NCBI RefSeq assembly: GCF_947494025.1 | Contig: NZ_CANLTQ010000009.1 | Location: 1 to 64,000 of the forward strand | From: an uncultured Jannaschia sp. | GTDB taxonomy: Bacteria; Pseudomonadota; Alphaproteobacteria; Rhodobacterales; Rhodobacteraceae | DNA: 64,000 bases | Direction: 5' to 3' | Part shown: one piece after another, positions 4,453 to 31,034 of the stretch | Numbering within the stretch: position 1 is the first letter of the stretch | Layout of the letters: each line of letters begins with the position of its first letter | Program-made: the position numbers and the translations under genes | Notes under the pieces: generated by a model | The model's database searches: none | Seen by the model: only the letters and a program-made list of their open reading frames with translations | What the model was told of the DNA's origin: nothing

Positions 4453-4456
4453 CGGA

Positions 4457-7166: not shown

Positions 7167-10100
7167 GCCGCGTCGCGGACCACCACGAAGGCGATCAGCT
7201 CAAAATCGTCCAGCCCCGCCACGTCGCCCACGAGCGCCGTAGTCGGCCCGTCTCCGAAGAGTGAATCCACGTCCCGACCCGCCTTGGTTTCTACCATCGA
7301 GCGCACGGCGTCGCCCAGCAGGTCTGAATAAGTCGTCATCTCACGTCCGTCCTGCGTCTCTTCGTTGAACGGGCGGAAGAGGTTGGGATCGGGCTCGGTC
7401 CTGTTCTTGGCCGCTCCGCGCAGTAGGTCGAGGACACGCTTGGAGTCGGTGTGTCGGACATGCGCCGTACCGTTCATGCGGACGTAGACAAGGTAGTACG
7501 GGTGCAACCGGTTGTGCGAGGCCAGCTGATCGCCGGCCTGAAGGTTGCGCAGACAAAAGATTGCGCCCGGCGGCATGCTCGCCGTAGTCGTCACGATCGC
7601 ATGCATACCCAACGGAGCATTGTCGAGCGAGCCGTGCTCTCGAACCCAGGATACGAGGTCCATGCGGAAGTCGTTCAGCCCAAGGTCTGTGATCGACACA
7701 CCTTGACGGACATCTTCCGGCTCGATCACCTCGTCCTGCAAGCGGCGCAGTTGCTCGCGCCGGTAGACCATGATGATCGAGTGGGTTGTCGTCGCCCGTC
7801 GCGGTCATGTCGGCGATGACCATCCGGTTCTCCACCCGGTCCTTGAGATTGATGTAATCGTCGAGCGAGATATCCGGCCAATAATTCACCAGCTGGATCC
7901 GCTCGTTGGGCGACCCGATCCGATCGACGCGGCCGAAGCGCTGAATGATCCGAACCGGATTCCAGTGGATGTCGTAATTTACAACGACGTCGCAATCTTG
8001 AAGGTTCTGCCCCTCGGAAATGCAATCGGTTGCGATCAGCACGTCCACGCGACGGTCTTCGTTCGGCATCAAAAGGTCAGCGCGCTTCGAGCCAGGGCTG
8101 AACAGGGTGAGGACGTCGTTGAATGCGAAACCCGTGCCTAGCGTCGTACGCGGGTTACCCGACCCCGTAACGCAGGCCGCGTGGCGCCCGTCGCGGCCAT
8201 GGATCGTCTGACCGAGTTCCCGGTAAAGATACTCGGCCGTATCGGCGAACGCCGTAAATATCAGCACCTTTCGATTGCCGTCGTTGAGCGGCGCTTTCGC
8301 TTTCGCTGCGACGTAGTCGAGCGCGTGCTGTAGCTTCGTGTCGTGCGTCGGCGTCACGTGCGCAACGTCTGTCAGCAACGCGTCGAGGAGTGCCACGTCG
8401 GCTTCAAGCTCGCGCTTATAGGTAACGAGATCCAGATCGGCGAAGGCAATCTCGACGTCACCTCGCTGTAGGCTCGTGCCGATGGAGGGCAAGTTGTCCT
8501 CATCCTCCATTTCCGTGACGGTGACGCCGCCGTTCCCGCTGCGTTCGAACGCGGCAATCGCGTCGAGCGTGTTGCAATGCTGGTCGACCAACTTCTGCAA
8601 GGTGATACAGAACGCAGCAACGGAGCTTTCAAGACGCTTAAGCAAGTTGACTCGCATCAGCGACTTGATCGACGCTTCCCGGTCTTGGTGACGCAGACGG
8701 TTGGTAGCCGTGCGCGTATCGTAGCGCTCTTCGTAGGCTGCCACTCTGCTTGGCAGCACGTAGGTCAGCGGCGCATAGACTGCGAGTGTAAGGTCCGAAA
8801 GCCGCTCGTAGATGTCATTGAAGTCAGGGACGTCGTCGCGCTCGGTCAACGCGCAGCGGAAGGATTGCGGCGGTAGCCTGTCGGGGAACCGTCCGATCTC
8901 GGTTGTGTCGTAGTGGGTCGTGATATGCCGTCGCGATCGGGCAATCGTCACAGCGTCCAGCAACTCGAAAAAGTCGAAGTCGAGCCGCGCTTGGATGGCG
9001 TCCGGCGTACGCTCCTCGACGGGGAGGTCTTGCCATTCATTGAAAGCCCGTTGGGCCCGACGAATCGTCTCCTCGACGCTTTGCGCGCTCTTCAGCTTGC
9101 TTGTCAGCTGACCGGAGTCGCCCTCGTAGGCAAGCGCCAGTTGGTTACGTAGGTCTGAGAAGCGGTTGTTGACCGGCGTGGCCGAGAGCATCAGCACTTT
9201 CGTGCGCACGCCCGCTCGAATGACCTTGTTAAGAAGTGCACGGTAGCGCGTTCCTGTCTCGCCGTCGTCCTGAGTCGCATTGTCATTGCGGAAATTATGC
9301 GACTCGTCGATCACAACGAGATCGTAGTTGCCCCAGTTGACTTGGTTGAGCGGCATTCCCATCGACTCACCGCCCGTGCGCAGCAGATCCGTATGCGCAA
9401 GCACGTCGTAGCGCAGCCGGTCCTCATGGAGGATGTTAGTGGTCAAGTTGCGATTATAGGTCCGCCAGTTCTCTGAGAGCTTTTTGGGGCAAAGGACGAG
9501 GACGGACTTGTTGCGCAGTTCGTAGTATTTTATCACTGCAAGCGCCGTGAGCGTCTTCCCCAAGCCGACGCTGTCGGCGAGGATGCAACCGTTGAACGTC
9601 TCCAGCTTGTTGATGAGGCCGACCACAGCATCCTGCTGAAACTTATAAAGCGTGCTCCAGACTTTTGTGTCGCGGTAGCCTGTCCTATCATTGGGCAGGG
9701 TGTCTTCGCTCACTTCGTCGAGAAACGTTCCGAATATGAACGCCAAGATGAGGTGGTAGATGCGCGACGGCGAGTTCTCCGCATAGGTCGCCTCGATCTG
9801 ACGACAGAGGGCTTCAGTAACGTCCTCTAATCGAGCTTGATCGCTCCAGAGTTGATCGAAGACTTGACAGTACCGCTCGCCAGGAGCGCGGTCGATCGAC
9901 TTGTTGATCATGCTCAGCCCGCCATCGGGTTCATAGCCCAAGTCGGAGGCCGTAAAGCCTGATAGATTCGTGTATGTTGTAAATTCGTCGGTCCTCTCTA
10001 GGGATAGGAACCCGGGTACGTTCCCACCTGCGACGTTCGCTTTGAACCGCGCAGAAGACCTGATCCATTGTGCACACTCCTGCGCCGTCGCCCGCGCCGT

Positions 10101-10391
10101 CATGCGGTTGCGCAAGCGAATTTCGAAAGGTGTGCCCGTGAGATCACGTGGACGCATGGTCGGGGGAATGATGAACTGACGATGTGGTGGCGCGGCCCCG
10201 ACTCCGTCCGTGACAAATGATGGACCCGGAAAGATGAAGTCGAAGCGGTCAATTTGCTCGAGCTTTACCCGTAAAGCTTCGAAGGCGTATATGGAGAAGG
10301 AAGGGGCAACGCAGCGGACATGATCGCCTTGCTGTAAAGTGGCAGCTAAATCGTCACCGAAAAGTACCGAGACGTTATCGATTACATCCAA
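7163..10391 (-). pseudogene. SNF2-family helicase, frameshifted near the C-terminus
   Basis: The protein of about 1,075 residues has an SNF2-type superfamily 2 motor: Walker A DSVGLGKTLTALAVIKYY, DESH box VVIDESHNFRN, and a C-terminal helicase lobe with ISEGQNLQ and QRFGRVDRIG. The last ~200 residues lie in another frame that starts around 7771, and this tail carries the conserved YRREQLRRLQDEV segment. Deleting one C in the CCC near 7780 restores one continuous frame. The likely start is a TTG at 10391, eight bases after a GGAGG. It is the first gene of the operon. An N-terminal PLD-type nuclease was looked for and not clearly seen. Its likely role is DNA translocation in defence; activity after the break is doubtful. 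Confidence 0.85.
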
Positions 10392-16652: not shown

Positions 16653-19019
16653 TCAGGCGTTGTAGCTATTTATCAACAAGCCCGAATTACCGCCTTCGCC
16701 GCGAACATAACGAAGTAGATCCTCCATGATCGGCACGTATCTCTCGCGTTTCCTTTTGAAAGCTTTGCTCGGAAGAGACCTGTCGATAAAGTCACAGCGG
16801 ACCGCATCGAAGGCACCCAAAAGCTTGTTGCCTAGTGGATCATGATCGACGAGCAGGGCGTGAGGCTCAATTCGTCGATAACGGAATATCCCGGCAGCCA
16901 ATAGATTAGTGTAATAAAATCTCGTATATTCTGTTCCCACCTCTCTTTGTATTTCGACAACGATACGCTGCCCGATGCAATCAATATCTTTTCGCGATAG
17001 AAGTTGCGGAGCAGTCTCGGATCGGGAGATAAGAAGGGCGAGGCACGCAATCTCGCGATTCCACTTCCAAGGTGTAGGATTGCTATCGAGGATTGCACGC
17101 AAGATCCGTTGCTCTATTTCCGGCCGTATCGCTGTTCGGGCCAAGCCTTGATAAAGCAATGTCCAGTTTGCCGCTGTCTGAGCGAATGGATGAGTGCCTA
17201 TTTGCCCCGCATGGTTCTCGATGCAGTCCAGAAGCCATTCGGAGACTACCGACGGGCAGCGTCGGAACTGCCAAGTCAGGAACTGAAGTGCCGCGTTATT
17301 GGACTCAGCGTGCATCGGTCCGTCTTCGAGACGCTGTCGGGTCACGGCGAGGGCCCTCGCGACTACCCGATCTAGATCCCATGCCGCCAAGTTGGGCAAA
17401 CCGATTGGCAACAAACCGTCACTGGAAACGCAGTAGTTGCCATGAGGCCGCGCCATCGCCTTCTGGGCTAACGTCTCCCAGTTGGGCGAACTGCTCTCCT
17501 GCGCCTCTGCCAGTAGGTTAATCATGCCGGGGCCCCTGTTCGACGCCTCCCATGGCTCCAACCCGCAGCTCAACACGAGCCGGTCGGGAATCGCGGGAGG
17601 CGGCGTAGCGAGGGAAGCGATGATGTCGTCCCAGTCGCGTGGGTCATCGTCAGCGTTGTCCCAATCCACTTGAAAACTTCGCGACATCGCAGAGGCATCC
17701 AAGACAATCTTTGCCCGACCCGCGGCAGGCTTCTGTTCGACCCAGACTGAAACAGGGATGTCGCACGTCGGGGCCATGTCCAAGGTGACGGTGGCCTTGC
17801 GCGGATGGGCCTCGGCGTCCTTGCGCAGGTAGATTGAGACGTCAACGACGCCCTTCGGGATCGCGAGCTTAGCTGGCTGCGGGCTGCGATAGATGCGCCC
17901 TGCCTCCAGTGTCTCGGTCTCGTCGATCAAGTCGTAATTCGTGGCTCCGGTCTTCCCGAAGACGATGGTCGAGATGCGGGGTAGGAAGTCATAATATACC
18001 GGATCGCCATTCGCCATGCGCTGCGCCGCGACCAGAGCGCCTCGTGCCACGGCATCGGGCAGGAGTGTCGTGTCGATGTTGAGGCCCCGGGTACGGGCAA
18101 GCGCTCTGACTTCCGCACATACACGGCCTTCGGTAACGGTTTCGAAGAATACCTCTGCGCAATCCGACAGGTCGACGACCCTTTCTGTCGGATTCAGAGC
18201 CGACGCCGGCAGCACGGGGGCGTCGATCACCTCCCAGCCCCCCTTGTCGAGCCGAACGATCTCTGGCTCATGCTGCATCCCGAACGCAACGCGGCCGATG
18301 GTGCGAGTCTGAGTCCGGTGCGCCGTTCGGGCTGAATAGCCATCCGCGCCAATTGCCGCCTGGCGCGCCAGCGTAACCAGTCCCCGCAATCCCGCGCTAC
18401 CTTCCAAGATCGTCGCGAGGGCCTTGCGTTCCGGCGTCAGGATGCCGCCTCGAGAACCAGCGGACCGGATACGCAATTTCTGGATCGACAGCCCTGACGA
18501 GACGTGGGAGACTATCCCGATAATGCATTCGTCTTGGATCAGACCAGCATCTATCGCATGGAGCGCCGCAAGGACCGTGCGCCAGACGAGTGTAGGCGTT
18601 CCGCACCGGGCTCTTGCCATCCCGTTCAGCAGCCGTTCCTGCATCGCCTCGATGGTGTCCGGGCTGTCCTCAATAGCCAGAACTGTATGATTGGCGCGCC
18701 TGGCGAAATCGGCGAAAGCGGCGGCAAGATGCGCTGTTTCTCCTCCGCGCCCCTCCAGTAAGTCCCGTACCGAGCGCCGTCGGGACACGTCACCGATCTG
18801 GCCCCAGCCGCCGCCCTTTCCGTGGGGCGCGAGATCGGCGGGCTGCCCACCGATCCAGAGCGCGGTCCTGCCCTCTCCGATCTGCACGACCGACGTCAGC
18901 GGTCCTGCCGACCCCACATGTATTCGGTCGATCACCGCATCCTCACCCGGTATCGTCGTCCAATTGCGCGCGACGTGATCGCGCCAGCCATTGACGTCCA
19001 GCCCCGCCGCTTTCTTCAT
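16653..19019 (-). CDS. Hsp70-like protein of a putative defence operon
   Basis: The 788-residue protein is the last gene of a five-gene operon. I place it with distant Hsp70-like proteins: the N-terminal ~300 residues have glycine-rich beta segments like an actin-fold ATPase, followed by a block (DAVARGALVAAQRMANGDP, YYDFLPRISTIVFGKTG) and a beta region (PAKLAIPKGVVDVSIYLRK) that resembles the end of the ATPase domain and the substrate-binding sandwich. The last ~300 residues are helical. I see no signal peptide or membrane helix. It overlaps the DUF2357 gene by 4 bases. In defence operons such proteins may act as ATP-driven sensors or scaffolds; that is inference. The family call rests on pattern only. 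Confidence 0.5.
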   Translation of the reverse strand: MKKAAGLDVNGWRDHVARNWTTIPGEDAVIDRIHVGSAGPLTSVVQIGEGRTALWIGGQPADLAPHGKGGGWGQIGDVSRRRSVRDLLEGRGGETAHLAAAFADFARRANHTVLAIEDSPDTIEAMQERLLNGMARARCGTPTLVWRTVLAALHAIDAGLIQDECIIGIVSHVSSGLSIQKLRIRSAGSRGGILTPERKALATILEGSAGLRGLVTLARQAAIGADGYSARTAHRTQTRTIGRVAFGMQHEPEIVRLDKGGWEVIDAPVLPASALNPTERVVDLSDCAEVFFETVTEGRVCAEVRALARTRGLNIDTTLLPDAVARGALVAAQRMANGDPVYYDFLPRISTIVFGKTGATNYDLIDETETLEAGRIYRSPQPAKLAIPKGVVDVSIYLRKDAEAHPRKATVTLDMAPTCDIPVSVWVEQKPAAGRAKIVLDASAMSRSFQVDWDNADDDPRDWDDIIASLATPPPAIPDRLVLSCGLEPWEASNRGPGMINLLAEAQESSSPNWETLAQKAMARPHGNYCVSSDGLLPIGLPNLAAWDLDRVVARALAVTRQRLEDGPMHAESNNAALQFLTWQFRRCPSVVSEWLLDCIENHAGQIGTHPFAQTAANWTLLYQGLARTAIRPEIEQRILRAILDSNPTPWKWNREIACLALLISRSETAPQLLSRKDIDCIGQRIVVEIQREVGTEYTRFYYTNLLAAGIFRYRRIEPHALLVDHDPLGNKLLGAFDAVRCDFIDRSLPSKAFKRKRERYVPIMEDLLRYVRGEGGNSGLLINSYNA

Positions 19020-20521
19020 GCCAGAGCACCGTAGAACTCGCTGCGAACGAAGGCACGGACCGCTTCCAGTCCTTCGGCCAGCGCCGGCCCCGATGCGCCG
19101 AGCGCGATCCCGGTCACGCGGCCACGCTGCCCGTTGGCTGACAGCGTCTCGGGCGTATCGTGGGCAGGGGTCAGGATCAGACCGTTGCGCAGAGACTCTA
19201 AGGTCGCCAGCACCTGTAACTGATCGAGCAGCGCCGCAGCCTCTGCAACACCGTTGGTCAAATCAATTCGATTCATAGCGTGCGGCGTCCAGATTGGCAC
19301 CCGTTGTGGAACCTCGTTCCGGGCCGGGTCGGTGATCCGCATGGCGACATGTGCCCGCGCCGCCGTCAGTAGCGCGCCGGGTCCTTCCGGTCGGGCTTGG
19401 ATCTCAACGATCCTCCCGGTTTGCCTTAGCCAGAACACGGCGATGGGGCGATCCTGATTGAACCATCGGCCCGTGACGGCCTCGGCGCGCCAGTCGATCG
19501 GGGACTGCGCGACCAGCTGCGCTTCGTCCAACTCGTCGACGGCCAGCGTGACGGCGAGCACGGCAAAGTCGGTCCAGGTCTGGGCCTGCCACGCCCATAG
19601 ATCGTCGATGATCCGTTCGCGTTGAAGCAAGAGCACCCAACAATCGTGAACGCGTCGATAGCCCGGATCCTGCGACAGCACGTAGTTCGGCGTCACCCCC
19701 GGTTCGGCCACCGAGATTCCCATCTCGGCCAGCGTGTCCGCCAGTGCACGGCACGTCTTCCGGAAAGCCTCGACCAGCGCATAGCGCGCGCTTTGGGTGG
19801 CGTGCGGGTGCTCGCGCATCCATTCACGGGCGACGTCGGCGGCTAGGCGGGCATAGGCATGCAGCACGCGATTTTCCAGCGTGTCAAAGTTCTCCTTGCG
19901 CACCGTCGCCAAGATGCGTTGCCCGGCCCCGGCCCGCTCGGCGACGGTGCGTCCCGGCTGGCGGCTCAGCCATACCATCGAGGCGCGATCCATCTCACGC
20001 ACGCGGTCCAGCGGTGTCAGCTCGCGGTGGCGCCGAAGCACGCGACGGATGCGCGCTTGCAGCTCCTTCAGGACGGGCCGGATCTCACGCGCTTGCCGCA
20101 CGATCTCGGCCATGCGCGGATCGGCCTCGTTCTCGGCCCGCTTCCAGGCGGCACGCAGGCGGGGCCAGACATCGGCCGGATCGTCCAGCGCCCCTTCCAG
20201 CTCCTGGATGCGGGCTAGTACCTCGTTCATGCGACGCAGGGCATCCGCGCCGCGGATCTCCGCATCGTCCTTCGGCTCCTGTCCCTTGCGGGGCCGTACC
20301 GGAAAGCCGACCCGGTCCGGCTGCACATCGCTCTCGCGCTTGGGATACGGAAAGAGCGCAAGGGATCTTTTCTCCCCCCGCACTGATCCCTCCATCAGAA
20401 GGACGTGCTTCGCCGTCGCGTCCGCCGACTTGTCGTAGGTTCCGACCAGGCAGTCGTTCGGCTCGAACGGGCGATCTTCAGGAATGGACCGCGCCGACCA
20501 GGGCCGGGACAATCGCCGCAT
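19016..20521 (-). CDS. DUF2357 (McrC-like) protein
   Basis: The 501-residue protein has the DUF2357 signature region with NFDTLENRVLHAYARLAADV, as found in McrC-related partners of McrB-like ATPases. The N-terminal part is beta-rich and charged, the centre is helical. Active relatives carry a C-terminal PD-(D/E)XK nuclease. Here the matching segment reads IAVFWLRQTGRIVEIQARPE, where I cannot find a convincing D...ExK triad, so the nuclease may be degenerate. It follows the McrB-like gene with a one-base overlap and precedes the Hsp70-like gene with a 4-base overlap. McrB-McrC pairing supports the call. Confidence 0.65.
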   Translation of the reverse strand: MRRLSRPWSARSIPEDRPFEPNDCLVGTYDKSADATAKHVLLMEGSVRGEKRSLALFPYPKRESDVQPDRVGFPVRPRKGQEPKDDAEIRGADALRRMNEVLARIQELEGALDDPADVWPRLRAAWKRAENEADPRMAEIVRQAREIRPVLKELQARIRRVLRRHRELTPLDRVREMDRASMVWLSRQPGRTVAERAGAGQRILATVRKENFDTLENRVLHAYARLAADVAREWMREHPHATQSARYALVEAFRKTCRALADTLAEMGISVAEPGVTPNYVLSQDPGYRRVHDCWVLLLQRERIIDDLWAWQAQTWTDFAVLAVTLAVDELDEAQLVAQSPIDWRAEAVTGRWFNQDRPIAVFWLRQTGRIVEIQARPEGPGALLTAARAHVAMRITDPARNEVPQRVPIWTPHAMNRIDLTNGVAEAAALLDQLQVLATLESLRNGLILTPAHDTPETLSANGQRGRVTGIALGASGPALAEGLEAVRAFVRSEFYGALA

Positions 20522-22557
20522 CAGCGCATCACCCCGCTCCAGACGAACTGGCCGATTTCTTCCGAAGCCTGCACCGAGTCCCCTATCGCCTGCCCCAGCG
20601 CATCGTCACCCAGCTCGGTCTCGACGAAACCGCGCAGCCGGTCGAACTGCGGCCCAGCCGTTTCCACATCGACACCGCGCAGCTTCGGAAGAAGGCGCAT
20701 CTCGACCTGGTCGGCCAGCGCGTCGGTAATCGGTCGGGCTCCTTCAGCCTGCGGGTAATTGGCGACATAGGCCATGATCGCCCGACCCAGACGATGACCG
20801 ATCGGGCGCTTCATTTCGCGCATGATCTCGACCATTGTTCCCACGCCGTCCCGAACGCGCGCCTCGCGTTCGACGCCCGAAACAGGCCGCACCCATCCCT
20901 GCCACTGGGCGCGGGACAGAGCCTGCAGGGGTGGAACGCTCCCCGCCGGATGCGACGTCTGGATCGCGCGGGGCGCGGCGAAGCGCAGGACGTTCGCGCG
21001 ATCGACTACCTTATCGGAGAGCGACTGCGTGCTCTCATCCTCGTTCATCGTGCCGGCGAAGAGCAGGTTGTAGCCGGGAAAGATCCGCGGCGGATTCACG
21101 AGCTTCGGGATCTCCAGCTCGATCTCGGCGTCTTTGCGCTCGTTTTCGTCGCCGACCGCGCCGGGGGCCGGCCGGCTCTCAAGACGGCTCAGGAAGTCCG
21201 AGAAATAGTATTCCACCCGCGCTAGGTTCATCTCGTCAAGCAGGATCATCATCATGCGATCCCGCACCGCGTACTCGTTGTTCTGCTCGTCCAGCGCCCA
21301 GAGCGCGCGAGCCATGTCGGTGGGGCGGAACTTGCCTTCGATGTAATTGTAGAAGCCCATCAGATCCTGCGGGCTGTCCCATCTCGGCTGCACCGGCACC
21401 TGCAAGAAGCCGATCCCCATACCGGCAGCGTATTGCCGGGGAAGCTGGCTCTTCCCGGTGCCAGAGATCCCTGCGAGCACCGCCATCTGCGTGCTCTCGT
21501 TCACCTTCATCGCGGTGTGGAAGGCGCGCAGCGTGCGCACCGGATAGTGCAGGCCTTTTGCCGCCAGCCGTTGTTCGACGCGGTGGAGCGCATCGGTTTC
21601 GGGAATGCGGTCGGACTCGGGCCAATCGATCATCTGACGAATGACGGGGGGCTTCTCGCGCAACTCCCGCAGCTTGTCGTCCCGGTCGTCGGCGTCCCCA
21701 GTGAGTGAGTCCATGCCCCTCGTATCCGCTTCGGCCTTTTCAATTTCGCCACGCAGATAGGCCAGTCGGGCCTCCAACGTGCTTCGCGTCTCTCCGATCG
21801 CTTCCAGTTCCCCCTGTCTGCGTTTTAGGTCGATGTTCTCGGCGGCGGTCAGGGCTTCGACGCGGGCATGTTCGGTCAGCGCATCGGCCAGCGCACTACG
21901 TTCGGCGATCCGGCGCGCGTCAATGTCGGCCAGATCGTCCGCCCGCGATGCGATTCGCCCATCCAGCCGGGCGGCGTCGGATTCGAGCATGCGTCCGCGG
22001 TCTTCCAGATTGGCCACGCGCGCCTCGGCCTCTTCCAGCCGCCGCAGCTGATCGCGCATTCCTTCGACCTTCTGCGCGATCGACTCGTGCTCGCCTTTCA
22101 GCGTGTCGATACGACCGACCAAATCTTCGGCCTTCTCCAGCCGGGCCTTAATATCGAGATATTCGTTGCGCAGCGGTACGATCTCGGCGTCGAGGGCCAG
22201 CTTTTCGGTTGCCGCATCCTCGATCTCCTCGCGCAGGGCCTGAACCTCCTGGCGTTTGTTCTCCAGGGTGTTCCACTCGGCAAGAAGATCATGCCGTTGT
22301 TTTCGCAGCGCATCGACCTCGGCACCTATGTCGGCGACGACCGCCATCGCCTCGCGCCGTTTTGCCAGTTCCTCCTCTAGATCATCCATCAAGCGGCGCT
22401 TCTCATCAAGTCGAGCGTCGTAGACGGACAGTTCCTCAATGGGACCGGCAGCGGCGTTCGCGCGGTCGTGGCGGATCGCCAGCGCTGTTTGAACGACGGC
22501 CAGAAGCGCCAGGACGCCGACAGCGGCGAAGACCAGAAGGGTGTTGTCGGTGATCAT
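20521..22557 (-). CDS. Membrane-anchored coiled-coil McrB-like AAA+ ATPase
   Basis: The 678-residue protein starts with one membrane helix (residues ~7-28), then a long coiled coil (~40-285) and a McrB-type AAA+ domain (~310-678). The motifs are Walker A GISGTGKS (363-370), Walker B MILLDEMN (437-444), the sensor-like GTMNEDEST (502-510) and DKVVDRA. The MNxxD-type sensor is typical of McrB-like GTPases/ATPases. It would form a ring that drives the McrC-like partner encoded just downstream. Joining it to a membrane anchor and coiled coil is unlike classical McrB. Its start overlaps the stop of the coiled-coil gene upstream (ATGA), indicating coupled translation. Confidence 0.85.
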   Translation of the reverse strand: MITDNTLLVFAAVGVLALLAVVQTALAIRHDRANAAAGPIEELSVYDARLDEKRRLMDDLEEELAKRREAMAVVADIGAEVDALRKQRHDLLAEWNTLENKRQEVQALREEIEDAATEKLALDAEIVPLRNEYLDIKARLEKAEDLVGRIDTLKGEHESIAQKVEGMRDQLRRLEEAEARVANLEDRGRMLESDAARLDGRIASRADDLADIDARRIAERSALADALTEHARVEALTAAENIDLKRRQGELEAIGETRSTLEARLAYLRGEIEKAEADTRGMDSLTGDADDRDDKLRELREKPPVIRQMIDWPESDRIPETDALHRVEQRLAAKGLHYPVRTLRAFHTAMKVNESTQMAVLAGISGTGKSQLPRQYAAGMGIGFLQVPVQPRWDSPQDLMGFYNYIEGKFRPTDMARALWALDEQNNEYAVRDRMMMILLDEMNLARVEYYFSDFLSRLESRPAPGAVGDENERKDAEIELEIPKLVNPPRIFPGYNLLFAGTMNEDESTQSLSDKVVDRANVLRFAAPRAIQTSHPAGSVPPLQALSRAQWQGWVRPVSGVEREARVRDGVGTMVEIMREMKRPIGHRLGRAIMAYVANYPQAEGARPITDALADQVEMRLLPKLRGVDVETAGPQFDRLRGFVETELGDDALGQAIGDSVQASEEIGQFVWSGVMR

Positions 22558-24401
22558 TCCACGGCCTCCAGTGCGGACGCTTCTTCCATGGTCTGCTCAG
22601 TCAAAGCGTCGTCTTCGGTTCCGGGCACGGACACTGGCTCGGTCGCGGATTGCTGTGTTACCGCATCCGCTATCAGCTCACGCTGCGCGGAAAGCTCGGA
22701 AGCGGCCTCGGCCAGTTCGCGTTCGCGTTCGGTCAGCGTCGCCTCGGCCTCGGCAATCCGCTGGACGAGTTCGGCACGGTCCTGCTCTGCCGCGTCGCGA
22801 TCGGTCTGCGCCGCCGTCACCGCGCTTTCCAAAGAGGCCAACACTTCTTGTGCTGCCGCTGCTGCCGATTCCGCGCCTCCGACGGTCTCGACGAGTTCGG
22901 CACGCCGCGCGTCGAGTTGCCCGATCTGTTCGCGTAGGGCAGAGGCCTGCCCGGTCAGCGCCGTCAGATCCTCTTGCGCGCCATTCCTTTCGCTCAGCGC
23001 CCCGGCGGTTTCACTCTTTAGCGCCGCCACGGTCTCGCGCGCTGCCATCGCCGCCGCTTCGGCGCCGTCGACTAGCTCGGCAAGTTCGGCCCGCCGAGTG
23101 CCCAGCTGACCGATCTGTTCGCGCAGGGCAGCCGCGCGCCCGGCAAGCGCCGCGACGTCTTCCCGCGCGCTGTCGAGTTCCCCCTGCGCCTCGACTGCCT
23201 CGGCCCGGGCTGTGTCGGCCTGCGCGCGCAGTTCCGGTAGGGCGTTTTCCAATGCAGTCTGCCGCGCCTGCAGGTTCTCGGCCTGCGCCGTCATCCGTTC
23301 GACCTCGCTGCGGAGGGCGATCACGTTGGCGATCCCGATCTCGGCGCCTTCGATCTGCGCGCGCAAGGAGGCGAGACGCGTCGTGAGTCCGGCCTGTTCC
23401 TCGCGGGCCATTTCTAGCTCGGTTTTGCGTTCAGCAAGCTGCGCCTGAACCGTCGCCAGCCTGTCCTGCGCTGCGGTTTCGCGCGCGGTGGCATCCGCTG
23501 CGGCAGCCCTGCCGGCCGCGATTTCGACCTGCATCATGCTGCGGCGTTCTTCCAGTTCGGCGAGTTCGGTTTGCAGCCCTGCTACGGTGGTTTTCATTGT
23601 GCCGGCACGCTCAGTCTCCGCGGCGAGGGCCTTTCGCACAGTTTCCAGCTCCTGCGTCGTCTGACCCAGACTGTTGCGCGCCGCGGTCAGGTCGGTGCGC
23701 TGGCTTTCCAGCGACCCCTCCAGCCGGTCCTCCTCGGCCCGCAAGTTCTCGACCTGTCGCGCGCGTGCTTCCAGATCGCGCGTCTGCGGACCCAGATCGG
23801 CGACTTGCGTGCGAAGCGCGTCACGCGTTTCGGTCAGCTGCCGATTGCTGTTTGTGATCTGTTCGTTCTGCGCAATGGTCTCTGCATTTTCCTCGGTCAG
23901 GGTCACGATATCCGTTTCGAGCGACGCGATTTGGGTCTCTAGATCGCGTCGGCGGGAGGCCATCTCGGTCATCTCTTTCGACGCGGCACGGGCTTCGGCA
24001 ATCATCGCGAGGGCCTCATTTCGATCCGCGTCTAGGTCTTGCAGCTCTTCCCGTGCGGCCTCGACTCGGGCCAGCGCGTCCGTTTCCCGCTGTTGCGCAC
24101 TGTCGCGGGCCAGCTCGCGCTCACGCAGCTTCGCGGCAAGATCGGCCTCGGCATTGCGGAGTTGGGCGATCTGGGAGCGCGTCGCGACAGCCGCGTCGCG
24201 TGCCGCGTCCCGCTCCGACAACGCCGTAGCCAGCTGCGACTGCAAATGCGGCAGGTCGCTTCGAATGCGGCCGTAATCCCGATCTAGCGAATTGATCTGA
24301 AAAACGAGGTAGCCTGACACCGCCAACGCGAGAAGCGCCAGCCCCAGTGCCAGATAGGTGTTCCGGCTCGACCTACGCGAGGTCCCGTTCGACGACATCA
24401 A
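22554..24401 (-). CDS. Membrane-anchored coiled-coil protein
   Basis: The 615-residue protein has one N-terminal membrane helix (YLALGLALLALAVSGYLVF, residues ~16-34) and then an almost unbroken coiled coil to about residue 580. Near the C-terminus two ~65-residue units repeat, each starting ALREQIGQL followed by RRAEL. There is no enzymatic motif. Its layout mirrors the N-terminal half of the McrB-like protein encoded next, so the two could pair as a membrane-bound coiled-coil complex. Its start lies 29 bases inside the 3' end of the helicase gene. The product is probably structural or a sensor of envelope or DNA-entry stress; that is inference. Confidence 0.7.
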   Translation of the reverse strand: MMSSNGTSRRSSRNTYLALGLALLALAVSGYLVFQINSLDRDYGRIRSDLPHLQSQLATALSERDAARDAAVATRSQIAQLRNAEADLAAKLRERELARDSAQQRETDALARVEAAREELQDLDADRNEALAMIAEARAASKEMTEMASRRRDLETQIASLETDIVTLTEENAETIAQNEQITNSNRQLTETRDALRTQVADLGPQTRDLEARARQVENLRAEEDRLEGSLESQRTDLTAARNSLGQTTQELETVRKALAAETERAGTMKTTVAGLQTELAELEERRSMMQVEIAAGRAAAADATARETAAQDRLATVQAQLAERKTELEMAREEQAGLTTRLASLRAQIEGAEIGIANVIALRSEVERMTAQAENLQARQTALENALPELRAQADTARAEAVEAQGELDSAREDVAALAGRAAALREQIGQLGTRRAELAELVDGAEAAAMAARETVAALKSETAGALSERNGAQEDLTALTGQASALREQIGQLDARRAELVETVGGAESAAAAAQEVLASLESAVTAAQTDRDAAEQDRAELVQRIAEAEATLTERERELAEAASELSAQRELIADAVTQQSATEPVSVPGTEDDALTEQTMEEASALEAVE

Positions 24402-27400
24402 TGCATCCCTCCATGTCTTGTGCCAGTTCGTCGACCCAGAAGCGGCGCACCCGCCAGCCCGCAGACTTCAATTGATGGTCGCGCCATATGTCCGATGTCT
24501 TGCGCCGCCCGTCCTGAGTTTGGTGCCAGCGGCGTCCGTCCACCTCGAGATCGAGCTTCACGCCATCCTTTCCGAACAGCGCGAAGTCGAGCCTGCGGCC
24601 CGCAATCTCGTGCTGTGGATGAGGATCGAGCCCGCGCGCCTTCAGGGCGTGATAGACGCGCCGCTCCCAGTCGCTGTCGAACACGCCCTCGCCGCTGCGC
24701 ACCCGTGGTTCGGTCGCTCGCGCGGCGAGGCTCGCCAGCGCTTTCGACCGGCCCGACCGCGCGAATTCCAGATCGCCGAAGATCATCGCGACGGCCCGTG
24801 CGCGCGATATGGCGACATTCAGCCGCCGCGTGTTCTTCTGAAAGAAGGTCAGCCCCGATTGCGGACTACGCGGGCCGATGCAGGGCGAGAAGAGGATCAG
24901 GTCCCGCTCCTGCCCCTGGAAACCGTCCACGGTCCCGATCTTCAGTTCCGCCGCGACGCGCTTGTGCTGAGGGATCTTTGCAGCCGCCTGTTCCAATGCC
25001 ATCACCTGCGCACGGAACGGCGTGATGACACCGATGCTGCCCTCGTAGCCCTGCTCTTCAAGCAGCAGCTGCAGATGCGCGACAACGGCTGCGACCTCGG
25101 CCGGATTGACGTTGCTGTTCTGCGCGAGCGCCGGTGCAGGCACGTCCTGCCATGCCAGTCCGGGCTTTGCGTTCTTGGGAACGACTAGGCCGGCGGGGTC
25201 ATAGGACGTCTGAAGTTGACCGCTATAGAAGTAGTCGCTGATGTAATCGACGATGGGCCCGGCCGAGCGATACTGGTGGCGCAATGCGACCCGCGGGGCG
25301 TTCGGCACCCGCGCAGCGAAGTCGAAGAGCGACCGTTTGCTCTGTGCGAACCGCGCCATCTTTGTCAGCGGCAGGTCTTGCGCCTGCATCAGGTTGCGGT
25401 CCTGCGCCTGGCCCAATTGTGCGATGAAGGACAGCTGCTGGTCGTCGCCCACCACGACCGCGCGCTTGGCACGGGCGAAGAGCGGAATGGCCGTAGCGAT
25501 GTCGCACTGGCTGGCCTCATCGAAGATCACCAAGTCGAATAGCCCGTCCTCCAGCGGGATACGTTTCGGCGTTCCTAGGATCGATGCGAGCCAAAGCGGA
25601 CGGTGCGACAGGACGGCCGAGGCCAGATCGAATGGCAGGTGCCCTTTACCGTCGCTGAAGCTCCAGTCATCATGGATCTGGGCGATGCTACGGCGTCGAT
25701 CGTCGGTAAGGAAGGTGCGCCCTGCCATCGTCGCAGGAAGCAACGTCTTGACTAGCGTCTGCGCCTTTTCACCAAGCGCGATGGGATCGCCTGCATCTGG
25801 CAGCCCGTCCCGCTCCTGCCGCGCCTGCTTCAACCGTTTGCGCAGCTCGACCAAACTGGGCGCGGCGGGAGAGCCATTCTTGGAGGACAGGATGTCTTGG
25901 CGACGGAGCGTCAGAATGCGAAGGATGGCAGCAAGTGCCGCCCTCAGACGCGATTGCCGCTGCTCAGGTACCTCCACGATCTCTTCCGCGCGCCCGCGAG
26001 ACTCGCGGAACGCGATGCGCTCCAGCAAATCGCCAATCTCGCATTCCAGAACGGCGCGACGTCGCATTCCGTCAATCGCATTACCTCGGTCGCACGCCAA
26101 TACCGTCAAATCGGACAGCGCCAGATCGTCGATTTCACCGCGTCCGGGACCGTCCTGGGTAAGGAGCGCTTTCAACGTCTCGGCAAAACCGACATCCACG
26201 TCGTCGTCGGGCTTGAGCGTACGGATTGCAAACGGTGCATCGGGTGCGAGCGCGCTGAGCCGATCCTCGACCGCGTCCAGCGCCTGATGGTTCTTCGACG
26301 CGACGAGAACGCTGCCACCCGAGAGCAGCACGGAGGCAGCCAGGGAGACGATGGCTTGGCTTTTGCCCGTTCCGGGCGGCCCGGTCACGACCGACAGGCG
26401 CGCGTGGCAGGCGTTGCGGACGGCATCGGTTTGTTCTGCATTCAACGGGCCGACATTGATTGCCGGAACATCCGGCACGTCGCTTTGAGGATCCAACCCG
26501 AAGATCGGCGCCAGCGCGGTCCGCGCGACCCGCTCCGTTGGCCATTCCGCGATCGCGTCGAGATCGCGCGCGGCGCCTGCAGTAAAACTCGAATCCGTTG
26601 GCAGGAAAAGCGCGGCCGCGTCGAAAAGCCCGGTCGAGGATATGTCGAGCCGCGAAGCCAGGTCATGGCCGGTCAGACGACCCCGGATCTGGGAGGCAAC
26701 GGCATCCTTCAGCTTCGCCAAGAAGTCCGGAGCGCGCAGGCCGACCTCCCTTTCGGTGTCAAACAGAGCCTGCAGTGCCGAGCGGTTCCAGCCTGTCAGT
26801 CCTGCCGCGCTGCGCAACCAGTCGGGGTTCACCAGAACGTCGTCGGCATCGACATGCAGGACCAGATTGGTCTCGCGCCGCTCCCACGACGCCGATAGCA
26901 GCCCCACCGGTTGGAACGTGGGCATCCCCCGGCTGCGGGTGACGGCAAGCGGCCAGCCGATGGCCAGCGCGTTCTCGTTGCCCTCGCGCCGCACGATGGC
27001 CTCGCGGAAGGAAGCAGGCAGGGCATCGAGCGCGACAGTCAGCGTCAGCGTTTCGCCCTCCGCCGGCGCGACCGGTCCACGACCTGAAACCAGCGTCCAC
27101 TCTACTCCATGTTTGTCAGCAACCTGCGTCGTCGCCCCACGCGGATCGGCGCGCAGAGCCGACCGCCAATAGCGCAGCACAGCTCGGTGATCGAGGCGCC
27201 GACGGTCCTCGTCCTCTACGATATCGGGAATGGCATTCACTTGCCGGCAGCAGTGCTGGAAATGGGCCGGAGAGGCCACCAATTCTTCGGATTGCACGTC
27301 CTGCAACCGGTATTCGAACTGCAGCGGCGTCGTTGTTATTCTGCCCGGCAGACGCGTAACAGCCCGCCACTTACCATCGTGTGCTTTCTCGATCCGACCG

Positions 27401-27537
27401 TCTCGAAGAAGTTCGTTTAGTTCGGCGAGCGCAGCGAGCCGTTTGTCGTGCGAGAACCCGGCTCCGGTCAGAACAAGCAATTCCTCAGTTGTACGGCCGC
27501 GCGGAAAGCTTTCTATCGTCCGATACACCAGAGACAT
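24373..27537 (-). CDS. SF1 helicase with C-terminal Vsr/DUF559-like nuclease domain
   Basis: The 1,054-residue protein opens the operon. The N-terminus has a winged-helix-like segment (residues ~1-60). The superfamily 1 motor (Upf1/AAA_12 type) has Walker A GPPGTGKS (386-393), Walker B LVIFDEASQCD, motif III VVGDDQQL, and motifs V-VI in GTVDGFQGQERDLILFSP and RRLNVAISRARAVAMIFGDL. The last ~100 residues are a Vsr/DUF559-like endonuclease fold: SDWERRVYHALKARG, then RRLDFALFGKDG and LDLEVDGRRWH. Such fusions occur in many defence loci. It starts at an ATG at 27537 downstream of an AT-rich promoter region. Confidence 0.88.
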   Translation of the reverse strand: MSLVYRTIESFPRGRTTEELLVLTGAGFSHDKRLAALAELNELLRDGRIEKAHDGKWRAVTRLPGRITTTPLQFEYRLQDVQSEELVASPAHFQHCCRQVNAIPDIVEDEDRRRLDHRAVLRYWRSALRADPRGATTQVADKHGVEWTLVSGRGPVAPAEGETLTLTVALDALPASFREAIVRREGNENALAIGWPLAVTRSRGMPTFQPVGLLSASWERRETNLVLHVDADDVLVNPDWLRSAAGLTGWNRSALQALFDTEREVGLRAPDFLAKLKDAVASQIRGRLTGHDLASRLDISSTGLFDAAALFLPTDSSFTAGAARDLDAIAEWPTERVARTALAPIFGLDPQSDVPDVPAINVGPLNAEQTDAVRNACHARLSVVTGPPGTGKSQAIVSLAASVLLSGGSVLVASKNHQALDAVEDRLSALAPDAPFAIRTLKPDDDVDVGFAETLKALLTQDGPGRGEIDDLALSDLTVLACDRGNAIDGMRRRAVLECEIGDLLERIAFRESRGRAEEIVEVPEQRQSRLRAALAAILRILTLRRQDILSSKNGSPAAPSLVELRKRLKQARQERDGLPDAGDPIALGEKAQTLVKTLLPATMAGRTFLTDDRRRSIAQIHDDWSFSDGKGHLPFDLASAVLSHRPLWLASILGTPKRIPLEDGLFDLVIFDEASQCDIATAIPLFARAKRAVVVGDDQQLSFIAQLGQAQDRNLMQAQDLPLTKMARFAQSKRSLFDFAARVPNAPRVALRHQYRSAGPIVDYISDYFYSGQLQTSYDPAGLVVPKNAKPGLAWQDVPAPALAQNSNVNPAEVAAVVAHLQLLLEEQGYEGSIGVITPFRAQVMALEQAAAKIPQHKRVAAELKIGTVDGFQGQERDLILFSPCIGPRSPQSGLTFFQKNTRRLNVAISRARAVAMIFGDLEFARSGRSKALASLAARATEPRVRSGEGVFDSDWERRVYHALKARGLDPHPQHEIAGRRLDFALFGKDGVKLDLEVDGRRWHQTQDGRRKTSDIWRDHQLKSAGWRVRRFWVDELAQDMEGCIDVVERDLA

Positions 27538-27743: not shown

Positions 27744-30700
27744 CTACTCCTCCGCTAAAGCGCAGAGCGTATTAACCATCGCCATCTGCTCAACAGTGCT
27801 GCACTTCGCCTCGAGCAATCGCGGCGAGGCGAAGACCAAAGCCAGCGCCTTGGCCCGCGAGACGGCGACGTTGATGCGGTTCAGCGACAGCAGGAACTCG
27901 AGCCCGCGCGGCAGGTCGTCGCCCGAGGAGGCGGTCATCGACACGAGACAGACCGCCGCCTCCTGTCCCTGGAACTTGTCGACCGTACCGACCCGGATGG
28001 CGGCGGGCAGCGCCGCGCGCAGGGCGTTGACCTGCAGGTTGTAGGGGGCGACGACGACGATGTCCTCGGGTTGCATTGGCCGGGTCGTCCCGTCGCGGTC
28101 GGTATAGGCGCCTTCGAGGAGCCTCAGCGCAGCGTCGCGGATCGCCTCGACCTCCTCCGGCGCCGTCTGCGCGTTCCCGTTGTGCGCAACCGGGACAAGA
28201 TGTGCGCCGGCTTCGGGTAATCCGTTCACCCCCGCGATCCGTTGTCGCGCGGTGTCGGGGTGGCTCTCCAACGTGCCGGCATAAACCTGCTCGGAGATGA
28301 AGGCACAGACGTCCGGGTGCATCCGCCGGGTGACGGGCAGGAAGATACCCCGGTCGGGTGCCACGACTGGCGCGTCGCCCTGCAGCCAATCGAGACAGGA
28401 GCGGTCGGAGGGCGCGGGGTGCGCTCCCTGCACCACCTGCGGTAGCTGTCGCGGATCGCCCACGAGCACGACGTTGCGTGCCGCCGTCGCCATTGCGAGG
28501 AGGTTCGCGAGCCCGACCTGCCCCGCCTCGTCGACGAAGAGGTGGTCGAAGGCTTGGCGGTTCTCCTCGCGTGCGAAGAAGTACACCGTACCGCCGACCA
28601 CGTCGGCCCCCGCGAGGGCGGGATCGTCGTTGCTTCGGGCCCGGCGGACCGGGCACTCCTCGGGATAGGTGTCCTCGCTCAGCTTGTGGGCGACGGCGAA
28701 ATCCGGATCGTTCCAGTCGTGCGCGGCGATTACCCCCATCAGAACGTTGCGGATCGCCTCATGGCTCGTGGAGGCGACGGCCACCCGCTTGCCCGCACGG
28801 ATTAGCGCCAAGATCGCATGCGCCGTGACGTAGGTCTTGCCGGTGCCGGGCGGCCCCTGGATCGGCAGCACGGTGTCGTCCATGTCGAGCACGGCGTCGA
28901 TCGTGCCTTCGACCGGGTCGCGGTCCCCCAGCACCGTCGTGCGAGATCCCGAGCGGAAGCGTGGCGCTGCCCGGGACAAAAGGTCGTCGATTGCGCGGAA
29001 TGCTTTCGGGCCGCATTGGTCGTCGATAGTGGCGTGAATGGCGGCCTGGATGACTTTGGTGGTGAGCGGGGCTTCGGGGTGCAGGGCTGTGACGGTCCCG
29101 AGCAGGTCCGCCTTGGCCTCGCCGATCTTCAGAACCACCTCACGTGTCGCATGGTCGATCTCGTCGAGGCCGGCAGAGACCGCAAACCCGTCCTCGCCGT
29201 AACCGACATTGGGCCGACCACCAGCCTTCAGCCGCGTTTCCTGGGGCGGAAAGCGGTAGCGTTGCGTCACGGACTGCTTCACAGGCTCGAGGCCACCGAC
29301 TGGCTCGAGCCCACCAAGCGCGTCGACGCTGTCGATCAATTCGTCAGTCTCGCGGCCCAAGCTGTCGTGGATCGACCACCAGACCGGCTTGTCCTCGCGC
29401 CAGTGATACTGCGCGAGGTCGAAGAGCAGACGCTGTCGATCCTCGGGCAACCCGGCTTCGGCAAGCTTCGCGCGCAGCGCTTCGGCCGCCTCGTCGGCGC
29501 CGGCCTCCTGCTCGGTTGCCGCTTCCGCCACGCGGGGCCAGGGCATGTCCGGGCGGATCGAGACGAGCCAGTCGCGCAGTTCCTCGGTCGAGACGCAGTC
29601 GACCTCGTTGTAGGCGCGGATCTCCTCGAGGATTGTCGCGTCGCCCGACGCGCGCCAGTCTTCGTAGGCCACGACCGAGCCGCCCGAAGTCGTGACCCCG
29701 CCGTCGCGGCCGCCACGGTAGAAGGCTTCCATCGACTTGATCGAGTAATTCCGCTCCGAGGCGACGAGACCGCCGCGCACTACGGCGTAAAGGTCGACGA
29801 AGCGCCGCTCGCGCAGGAGCCGGTCGAGGAACGCTTCACCGATGCCGTACTTGGCGGTAATCCGCTTCAGCGCCGTCACCTCGTATGGGGCATAATGGTA
29901 GATGCGGGCGTCGGGATAATCCGCGAGCCGGGCCCGGAACCAGTCGAAGAGATTGCCGAGCGCCGTCGCCTCCGCCCCGTGGTCGTGCGCCCAGAACGCG
30001 GTAAAGGCGCCGTCGGCCCAGATGCCGTGCAGGTATTCGAGACCGCCCTCATAATACGGGTCGCCCTCGATATCGTAGAACACGTCGCCGGGTGCGGGCT
30101 CAGGCAGTAGGTCGAAGCCCCGTCCCGCTTCCGCGGGGCGCAATTCGTAGGCCGGCACCCCGTCCTTCCGGGCATGCTGCAGCCGCGCCTGCGCCACGAG
30201 CTTTGCGAGCGTCGGTGCGGCCAGGCGGCGGACGGGCTCGTTGCGCTCCGCCAGCGCCGCCATCGTCGTGACCCCGGCCGCCGCAAGCTTGCCGATCTGG
30301 CCCGCCGTGATCCCCGCGACGTTGTAGAGACTGTCCTCGGCGTCCCAGACGGATTGGCAATGATCCTGCCAGCGGCAGAGCGTGCAGGCCGGCCCACGCC
30401 GCGGTGCGGTCTCCGGGCGTTCCGCAACGAAGGCTTCGAGCCGCTGCCGCGCCCGCCGGGCATAGGCGGCGTAGTCCGCGAGGCGGAAGGTCGCCCGTGT
30501 ACCGTCGCCGAGTTCCACATGCGCGCGCTCGGGCGCCACGCCCTGCAGCTCGGCGAGGAGGTCGGAATAGAGCACGAGTTGCAGCACGTGCTTCGGGTCG
30601 GGCCGTCGCTTCAGCTTGGTGTCGGTGACCTCGTAGCTCCAGCTTCCGAGTGCCGAGGGCTGCTCGACCCGCTCGAGGAAGTCCGACCACCCGCCCCAGG

Positions 30701-31034
30701 CCCCACCGGCCAGCGCTGCCTGAAAGATCACGTCCGGGCCGTCCTCAAGGGCCGACCGCGTTTGGACGATGCCCGTCGCGAGGCTCAGGCCGTCCCGCGC
30801 GATCTCGACGACGCGCTTGCCGCTCCCTTTCAAGGCTTCGAGATGAGCGACCTCGTGCGCGTCACCTTGGGCCTGCAGGAGCCGCGCTTCGGCGTCGTCG
30901 GCCCGAGGCTCCGGCCCCCGGCCTTCGAGGCGCTCAAGATCGAGCGTGGTGGCATGGGCGCAGCCGGTGAACCGCATCAGGTCCGACGCCGAGAACAGGT
31001 AGCTGCCGTCGATCCGCTGCATGGCCGGTCTCAT
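27744..31034 (-). CDS. TM0106-family RecB-like nuclease fused to SF1 helicase
   Basis: The 1,096-residue protein fits the TM0106 RecB-like family. The N-terminal part has a RecB-type nuclease region with CTLCRWQDHC, which could bind an iron-sulfur cluster with the early cysteine in TGCAHATTLD. A middle RNase H-like domain follows (YDIEGDPYYEGGLEYLHGIW, IYHYAPYEVTALKRI). The C-terminal SF1 helicase has Walker A QGPPGTGKTYVTAH, LFVDEAGQVGLAN, VGDPRQLPQV and motifs V-VI. All domains are intact. It lies 206 bases upstream of the five-gene operon on the same strand, so it may be part of the system or a separate gene. A truncated copy of its 3' end lies at 10,536-11,046. Confidence 0.85.
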   Translation of the reverse strand: MRPAMQRIDGSYLFSASDLMRFTGCAHATTLDLERLEGRGPEPRADDAEARLLQAQGDAHEVAHLEALKGSGKRVVEIARDGLSLATGIVQTRSALEDGPDVIFQAALAGGAWGGWSDFLERVEQPSALGSWSYEVTDTKLKRRPDPKHVLQLVLYSDLLAELQGVAPERAHVELGDGTRATFRLADYAAYARRARQRLEAFVAERPETAPRRGPACTLCRWQDHCQSVWDAEDSLYNVAGITAGQIGKLAAAGVTTMAALAERNEPVRRLAAPTLAKLVAQARLQHARKDGVPAYELRPAEAGRGFDLLPEPAPGDVFYDIEGDPYYEGGLEYLHGIWADGAFTAFWAHDHGAEATALGNLFDWFRARLADYPDARIYHYAPYEVTALKRITAKYGIGEAFLDRLLRERRFVDLYAVVRGGLVASERNYSIKSMEAFYRGGRDGGVTTSGGSVVAYEDWRASGDATILEEIRAYNEVDCVSTEELRDWLVSIRPDMPWPRVAEAATEQEAGADEAAEALRAKLAEAGLPEDRQRLLFDLAQYHWREDKPVWWSIHDSLGRETDELIDSVDALGGLEPVGGLEPVKQSVTQRYRFPPQETRLKAGGRPNVGYGEDGFAVSAGLDEIDHATREVVLKIGEAKADLLGTVTALHPEAPLTTKVIQAAIHATIDDQCGPKAFRAIDDLLSRAAPRFRSGSRTTVLGDRDPVEGTIDAVLDMDDTVLPIQGPPGTGKTYVTAHAILALIRAGKRVAVASTSHEAIRNVLMGVIAAHDWNDPDFAVAHKLSEDTYPEECPVRRARSNDDPALAGADVVGGTVYFFAREENRQAFDHLFVDEAGQVGLANLLAMATAARNVVLVGDPRQLPQVVQGAHPAPSDRSCLDWLQGDAPVVAPDRGIFLPVTRRMHPDVCAFISEQVYAGTLESHPDTARQRIAGVNGLPEAGAHLVPVAHNGNAQTAPEEVEAIRDAALRLLEGAYTDRDGTTRPMQPEDIVVVAPYNLQVNALRAALPAAIRVGTVDKFQGQEAAVCLVSMTASSGDDLPRGLEFLLSLNRINVAVSRAKALALVFASPRLLEAKCSTVEQMAMVNTLCALAEE

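Follow-up and report, generated by a model that had tools for sequence, protein, structure and literature searches.

The window analysed here, the whole 64,000-nucleotide stretch of contig NZ_CANLTQ010000009.1 from an uncultured Jannaschia sp., carries a five-gene operon with the same components, in the same order (CnuH, CnuA, CnuB, CnuC, CnuD; H-A-B-C-D), as the published Type III-B CoCoNuT (Bell et al. 2024, eLife, PMC11090510). We consider it probable that the operon is a complete system of this type and represents a membrane-anchored form of McrBC-type restriction system. What can be read directly from the sequence is the set of five genes and its order, the motifs of the helicase, GTPase and nuclease, and a conserved N-terminal hydrophobic helix in both CnuA and CnuB. 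Relative to the main text of PMC11090510, the conserved membrane anchors predicted on CnuA and CnuB are apparently new. The five open reading frames (ORFs) are as follows.

24373..27537, minus strand: CnuH, 1054 amino acids, superfamily 1 (SF1) helicase with a C-terminal nuclease
22554..24401, minus strand: CnuA, 615 amino acids from a TTG start (alternative ATG at 24398), coiled coil with a predicted N-terminal membrane helix
20521..22557, minus strand: CnuB, 678 amino acids, predicted membrane helix, coiled coil and McrB-like NxD GTPase
19016..20521, minus strand: CnuC, 501 amino acids, DUF2357 McrC-like partner
16653..19019, minus strand: CnuD, 788 amino acids, Hsp70-like by a weak profile match, with degenerate ATP-binding motifs

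Adjacent ORFs overlap, from the first gene to the fifth, by 29 (26 from the CnuA ATG), 4, 1 and 4 bases. A promoter scan found none, and the terminator predictions (9, against 8.3 in shuffles) show no excess. Most of what the first-pass annotation of this DNA had proposed is confirmed: five genes with overlapping ends at 16653..27537, all on the minus strand, encoding an SF1 helicase-nuclease fusion, two coiled-coil proteins with a membrane anchor (one predicted N-terminal hydrophobic helix each), the second of them a McrB-like AAA+ protein, and a DUF2357 partner, with a kinship to McrBC and CoCoNuT that the components and the Type III-B order bear out. Its description of the system as undescribed fails, because these components and this order are those already named as Type III-B in PMC11090510.

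Components of the operon

In PMC11090510, Type III-B consists of a CnuH with an N-terminal winged helix and OB fold and a UPF1-like helicase fused directly to a Vsr-like nuclease, a lone coiled-coil CnuA without any other domain, CnuB, a CnuC with a dead nuclease domain and a separate Hsp70-like CnuD; it has no TerY-P and occurs primarily in Alphaproteobacteria, and an NxD GTPase signature defines the branch to which it belongs. We compared the operon with related loci found by scanning genome contigs, where the best 80 of 200 confirmed stretches were kept and gave 79 loci. The 83 loci examined below include the window and near-copies and leave out two loci of other types, and CnuA was called in them by position.

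The fusion of a UPF1-like helicase with a nuclease in CnuH is supported by Pfam matches to AAA_12 (E 2.1e-33), AAA_11 and MTES_1575 (E 4.7e-14), the nuclease being assigned through the MTES_1575 family and not through the Vsr family itself. Its best relatives in the PDB include SMUBP-2, SEN1, UPF1/NAM7 and DNA2, and the window copy retains both its helicase Walker A and its DEASQ motif. The nuclease motifs E[VIL]DG and LDxA are present in all 64 stop-terminated CnuH ORFs, including five that are truncated at the front by an insertion sequence (IS).

24388..24666, minus strand: CnuH nuclease domain (MTES_1575; Vsr-like PD-(D/E)xK), Pfam residues 958-1050
21037..21471, minus strand: CnuB GTPase motifs, from alignment: Walker A GISGTGKS, Walker B LLDEMN and signature MNEDE (NxD)

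CnuA and CnuB both score on SMC/Rad50 coiled-coil models. All Pfam and PADLOC matches of CnuA are of the coiled-coil type, and its other feature is the predicted membrane helix. For CnuB, PADLOC returned the candidate PDC-M26A (E 7.6e-41), a name ('PDC-M26') that was not met in the literature searched, and the PDB returned only a viral coiled coil (E 0.0069). The GTPase motifs of CnuB are invariant in all five aligned proteins, namely the window and four relatives found without the MNEDE pattern, and the Walker A and Walker B patterns are each present in 82 of the 83 loci. Across 85 CnuB proteins the signature reads MNEDES/T in 73 and MNQDET in one III-A protein, with 11 unplaced by the pattern, a count that is partly circular because GTMNEDE served as one probe of the genome scan. 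An unusual CnuA was seen at L060: with 1067 residues it is roughly double the normal size, and the CnuB next to it is of ordinary length.

The DUF2357 match of the window CnuC (E 3.3e-5) lies barely past the cut-off, and the domain was found in all 56 aligned CnuC at E up to 0.1. By eye, the C-terminus reads RPI..EIQ where RPD..DTK would be expected, and is possibly a dead PD-(D/E)xK remnant. No signal was obtained when the CnuC profile was compared with McrC nucleases (2-3 comparators only), PF10117 gave no match in the window CnuC at E up to 0.1, and the PDB gave just chance-like matches to T-cell receptors (E 0.15-0.28).

The fifth gene, proposed earlier to be Hsp70-like, is a separate gene, as in Type III-B, and the likeness itself comes from weak profile and weak PDB matches, with no Pfam match in the window CnuD. 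When profiles built from 56 CnuD and from 30 Hsp70 proteins were compared, they aligned over 177 columns, starting at residue 3 (E 2.4e-4, probability 44%, one comparison), and the single control, CnuC against Hsp70, gave E 0.51. Four of the five PDB matches at E up to 1 are entries named 'putative heat shock protein' (E 0.19-0.27), which we take to be Hsp70s; the best match (E 0.1) is unrelated. The phosphate-binding motif DLGTT is replaced by DVNGW in the window CnuD and by DLNGW in the consensus, which fits the statement in PMC11090510 that the Walker A-like motifs are degenerate.

A number of observations tell against the assignment of the operon to an intact and anchored Type III-B defence system. 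Among the 64 CnuH the strict helicase Walker A pattern is found in 58 and DEASQ in 49, and five Pfam queries with the CnuH N-terminus at E up to 5 gave no winged-helix or OB match. None of the 56 CnuD members matches the HSP70 Pfam family (seven other matches are scattered), and by sequence the Hsp70 likeness is weak. A tree of the CnuB GTPase domain (78 rows) speaks for the assignment in one respect: the window, paired with Rhodovulum marinum (97/98), falls among alphaproteobacterial loci of this layout in a large clade and stands apart from three III-A and from the cyanobacterial III-C proteins. In other respects it tells against it, since several loci that share the layout (e.g. L080, L084, L087, L096) fall outside the main branch and the tree does not show the Type III-B layout as a single clade; some of its deep branches are unsupported, and the branches of three outgroup rows are very long. 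Finally, both the membrane location and the defence role are predictions from sequence.

Membrane helices of CnuA and CnuB and their orientation

A membrane helix was called where the mean Kyte-Doolittle value over 19 residues reached at least 1.6, with start codons picked by script and the partner proteins scored on their first 70 residues. The helix and orientation counts omit L012 and L013, which are of other types, and L032, L045, L054, L055, L058, L081, L085, L086, L091 and L094, where CnuB is broken, cut or cyanobacterial III-C-like.

24300..24356, minus strand: CnuA predicted membrane helix, Kyte-Doolittle 19-window 2.15, flank net charge +3 before and 0 after
22483..22539, minus strand: CnuB predicted membrane helix, Kyte-Doolittle 19-window 2.48, no basic residue before and RHDR after

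Such a helix was found at the N-terminus of 62/63 CnuA and 71/73 CnuB tested (74/83 CnuB when cut or broken copies were retained), and in only 2 of 217 partner proteins (CnuH 0/64, CnuC 1/82, CnuD 1/71). The same test gave no second hydrophobic segment in CnuA or CnuB, so that the helix is single and strictly N-terminal. Its hydrophobicity matches that of the helices of FtsB and RmuC, which served as controls, and it is kept from Alphaproteobacteria to Verrucomicrobia. None of three III-A CnuB has the helix, nor has one Type I-like protein, and two other McrB-like proteins score under the cut-off (1.17 and 1.31). The III-C CnuB of Synechocystis has a hydrophobic N-terminus of a different kind (2.39). 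A glycine-rich hydrophobic start of this sort is present in the cyanobacterial III-C-like CnuB of L013 (8074-10233), L081, L085, L086 and L091 (2.39, 1.86, 1.72, 1.99 and 1.58, respectively) and is lacking in that of L094; it is possibly a membrane hairpin, and membrane association may extend, in this different form, to Type III-C.

Charges were compared in flanks of 15 residues on either side of the helix, each flank starting at the first charged residue that bounds the hydrophobic core. By construction each non-empty flank contains a charged residue, and the FtsB and RmuC controls, taken from related genomes, were treated alike. The coil of FtsB is periplasmic, and RmuC is taken as cytoplasmic. 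A start was identified in 29 of 30 FtsB loci, and 24 reached the helix cut-off, as did 28 of 30 RmuC loci. In CnuA the net charge was higher before the helix than after it in 58 of 62 proteins (means +2.29 and -1.16; two reverse, two ties), and 21/24 FtsB behaved in the same way (one reverse). In 71/71 CnuB, lysine and arginine were missing in front of the helix, with one or more of them behind it, and 27/28 RmuC were similar to CnuB, with more of these residues after the helix (one reverse by net charge). With near-copies removed, the counts became 51/55 for CnuA (two reverse) and 59/59 for CnuB. In the coils of 51 CnuA-CnuB pairs, cysteine accounted for 4 of 25,481 residues in CnuA versus 36 of 15,374 in CnuB, and for 0 of 1,560 residues in the FtsB and 3 of 3,300 in the RmuC control coils; the scarcity in CnuA fits a periplasmic location of its coil but is suggestive at best.

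CnuB is in all likelihood held in the inner membrane with its coil and GTPase domain in the cytoplasm. A stronger ground for this than the charges is that the GTPase must meet GTP and its partners there. For CnuA, the flank charges suggest the reverse, with the N-terminus in the cytoplasm and the coil in the periplasm, and we somewhat favour this placement. Hence, contrary to the earlier description of the two coiled coils as parallel, CnuA and CnuB would rather be oriented in opposite directions, a reading that we likewise hold with reserve.

The charges do not all point this way. By net charge, the 71 CnuB are mixed (33 with the C-terminal side inside, 13 opposite, 25 ties), and the flank in front of the CnuB helix is very short, which leaves little weight to the absence of lysine and arginine there. 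Counting lysine and arginine alone gave 39 to 9 for CnuA and 5 to 5 for the FtsB control, and this measure is therefore blind here. An enrichment of serine and threonine, higher in CnuA than in CnuB in 50 of 51 pairs, was considered as a sign of the periplasm and discarded because the control failed, the cytoplasmic RmuC coils being equally rich (0.129) and the periplasmic FtsB coils poor (0.061).

It is possible, if rather doubtful, that both coils of the same anchored system lie in the cytoplasm and are paired there, CnuA acting as a tether or scaffold for a ring formed by CnuB and CnuC. PMC11090510 suggests contacts of CnuA with other coils, and in the Zorya system the membrane protein ZorA has a long tail in the cytoplasm (PMC11890865). 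This arrangement is opposed by the basic residues that precede the CnuA helix in nearly all members and by the near absence of cysteine from CnuA coils. Covariation of the CnuA and CnuB coil lengths, which would be expected of coils lying side by side, is not seen either (53 pairs, rho 0.05, p 0.72), a null result that proves little.

Distribution, gene order and genomic setting

A CnuB search of 194 relatives found matches in eight genomes at E up to 1e-3, including that of the window. Only one other match was near full length, and six were partial, covering the GTPase domain (three), the coil (two) or a part near the C-terminus (one). Sampling 385 genomes evenly across the class gave two CnuB matches at E up to 1e-10, one of them the window. 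Among plasmids, 258 records matched, four of which cover at least 80% of the query, and one of these four has a Type III-A layout; a complete operon is carried by a Rhizobium leguminosarum plasmid. A contig filed as viral (L191, IMGVR_UViG_3300033183_000484) carries CnuH, CnuB, CnuC and CnuD with an ORF in the place of CnuA.

The expectation that the five genes travel together held up: H-A-B-C-D was complete and in order in 53 of the 58 loci (of 83) with room on both sides, the exceptions being L032, L076, L085, L090 and L092. In the Verrucomicrobiota loci L092 and L095 the helicase gene follows CnuD. Five Rhizobium copies within the 53 (L011 and L034-L037, in R. tropici, R. lusitanum (two strains), R. 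leucaenae and R. freirei) have equal profile scores and carry CnuH in two pieces, while their CnuB, CnuC and CnuD are still open; IS21 is annotated between the pieces at L011, and the pieces at L034-L037 have the same size and score. Among L066-L096, H-A-B-C-D is complete in Thermodesulfobacteriota, Competibacteraceae and one Planctomycetota contig, and the Lentisphaerota sets are incomplete in the stretch viewed. The host range is thus wider than the 'primarily Alphaproteobacteria' of PMC11090510.

In the window, the G+C content in 2-kb bins is 0.58-0.68 before 32 kb and 0.67-0.72 after. On its left side the operon is flanked by genes for a Type III restriction enzyme, DUF4391 and a SNF2 helicase and by a methylase in two ORFs. 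Mobile-element sequences on this side are a gene for an IS66 transposase and a short piece of an rve/HTH_21 transposase. The two methylase ORFs (4457-5566 and 5755-6495) match two halves of one family model, and the decayed restriction-modification island and IS elements reported earlier in the flanks are thereby recovered. On the right, a TM0106-family nuclease-helicase is followed by a partial DDE transposase and, beyond it, by znuA and genes for ABC transporters.

1375-10391: Type III restriction-modification cluster with DUF4391 and a SNF2 helicase, by Pfam
27744-31034, minus strand: TM0106-family RecB-like nuclease fused to an SF1 helicase, directly upstream of CnuH

Caballeronia (L012) also has a TM0106 gene, downstream of its III-A-like system. 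Around related loci, 92 of 160 flanking ORFs were scanned with no background control, and no enrichment is claimed; among the matches listed, a Type I restriction specificity domain occurs at least five times and an R-subunit N-terminal domain at least three times, and Cas3, BrxL and GmrSD also occur. One Rhizobium copy adjoins Shedu.

A UPF1-like helicase and an Hsp70-like protein belong to families that handle RNA and protein, and the operon could on this ground encode a cell-envelope or RNA-housekeeping machine and not a defence system. We regard this as quite improbable given the patchy presence (8/194 relatives, with one other near-full-length match), the occurrence of copies both on plasmids and on the viral-filed contig L191 and, subject to the lack of a background control, the restriction subunits, Cas3, BrxL and Shedu among the neighbours.

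Relation to known systems and proposed mechanism

The CnuA and CnuB membrane helices are absent from the account of Type III-B in the main text of PMC11090510. There, the N-termini of Type II and III CnuB are given as coiled coils only, and 'transmembrane' appears six times, each time for another protein or in the title of a reference. Later literature on these proteins, as far as searched, came to PMC11090510, its preprint and a YprA-helicase preprint without the word 'transmembrane', and no experimental study of CoCoNuT Types I-III was found there. It would agree with this published description, which also gives no other domain for III-B CnuA, if the system were soluble and the hydrophobic N-termini were packing helices. 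That seems quite improbable to us, since the helices equal those of FtsB and RmuC in hydrophobicity, are single and strictly N-terminal, and are found from Alphaproteobacteria to Verrucomicrobia.

The best PADLOC match of CnuH is MkoA of Mokosh (E 1.4e-55), which covers residues 364-932, the helicase part only (profile 615-1082 of 1112), and the other four proteins have no Mokosh match. No CoCoNuT label appears among the matches of the five proteins to PADLOC-DB of 2023, and none at all was returned for CnuC or CnuD. A new system distinct from CoCoNuT, or a form of another catalogued one such as Mokosh, could be read into these PADLOC results (MkoA, PDC-M26A, coiled-coil models for CnuA, nothing for CnuC and CnuD) but is extremely improbable, since the published Type III-B already contains all of these components in the same order and the MkoA match is confined to the helicase.

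Type III-A, a type assigned here from gene content to L012, Klebsiella L192 and Photobacterium L193, shares with the window a related CnuH-like AAA gene and CnuB. It differs in having an extra gene between the helicase and CnuB, a CnuB without a membrane helix, one long DUF2357 protein in place of CnuC and CnuD, and TerY-P genes (a vWA protein, a phosphatase and a kinase at L012, only the kinase in view at L193); by contrast, none of the 26 window ORFs scanned with Pfam matched a kinase, phosphatase or vWA family. CoCoPALM resembles the window operon in that its NxD GTPase is fused to a coiled coil with an FtsB-like membrane helix (PMC11090510). However, its signal peptidase-family partner was not found among the 26 ORFs, no helicase-nuclease or Hsp70 gene is given for it in PMC11090510 as far as consulted, and the flank charges of CnuB are unlike those of FtsB. 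Canonical McrBC has NxxD and an active McrC nuclease, whereas the window has NxD and no PF10117 match.

Two other systems show that defence sited at the envelope has precedent. Zorya has an inner-membrane complex coupled to a nuclease (nickase) effector (PMC11890865), but this complex is built on the MotAB-like ZorA and ZorB, for which the five proteins gave no PADLOC or Pfam match at E up to 0.1. SNIPE, a membrane-located nuclease that cuts phage DNA during injection (PMC13190303), provides a model for tethering; it is a different protein, and its abstract describes no McrBC ring.

If CnuB is anchored in the inner membrane, a GTPase ring of CnuB and CnuC would sit on its cytoplasmic face, and the membrane helices of CnuA and CnuB may relay a signal from phage adsorption or genome entry to this ring. 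The ring could then recruit or license CnuH, which would unwind nucleic acid that is incoming or newly made, close to the membrane, and cut it. CnuD, with its degraded ATP motifs, may select the target, probably RNA or nascent complexes, and CnuC most likely no longer cuts; RNA was also proposed as the target by Bell et al. (PMC11090510). Tentatively, we propose that Type III-B may be an envelope-spanning machine, in which a periplasmic CnuA coil would sense phage adsorption or genome entry, the opposed CnuB GTPase would be cytoplasmic, the helices would couple both sides and the helicase-nuclease would act at the entry site.

The operon is thus a good and apparently complete member of a named, little-studied system with a testable anchoring feature, and the opposed pair of predicted anchors offers a concrete and cheap test of its site of action and trigger. 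If the system is membrane-anchored, a McrBC-type machine would join SNIPE (PMC13190303) and Zorya (PMC11890865) among the defences that act at the cell envelope.

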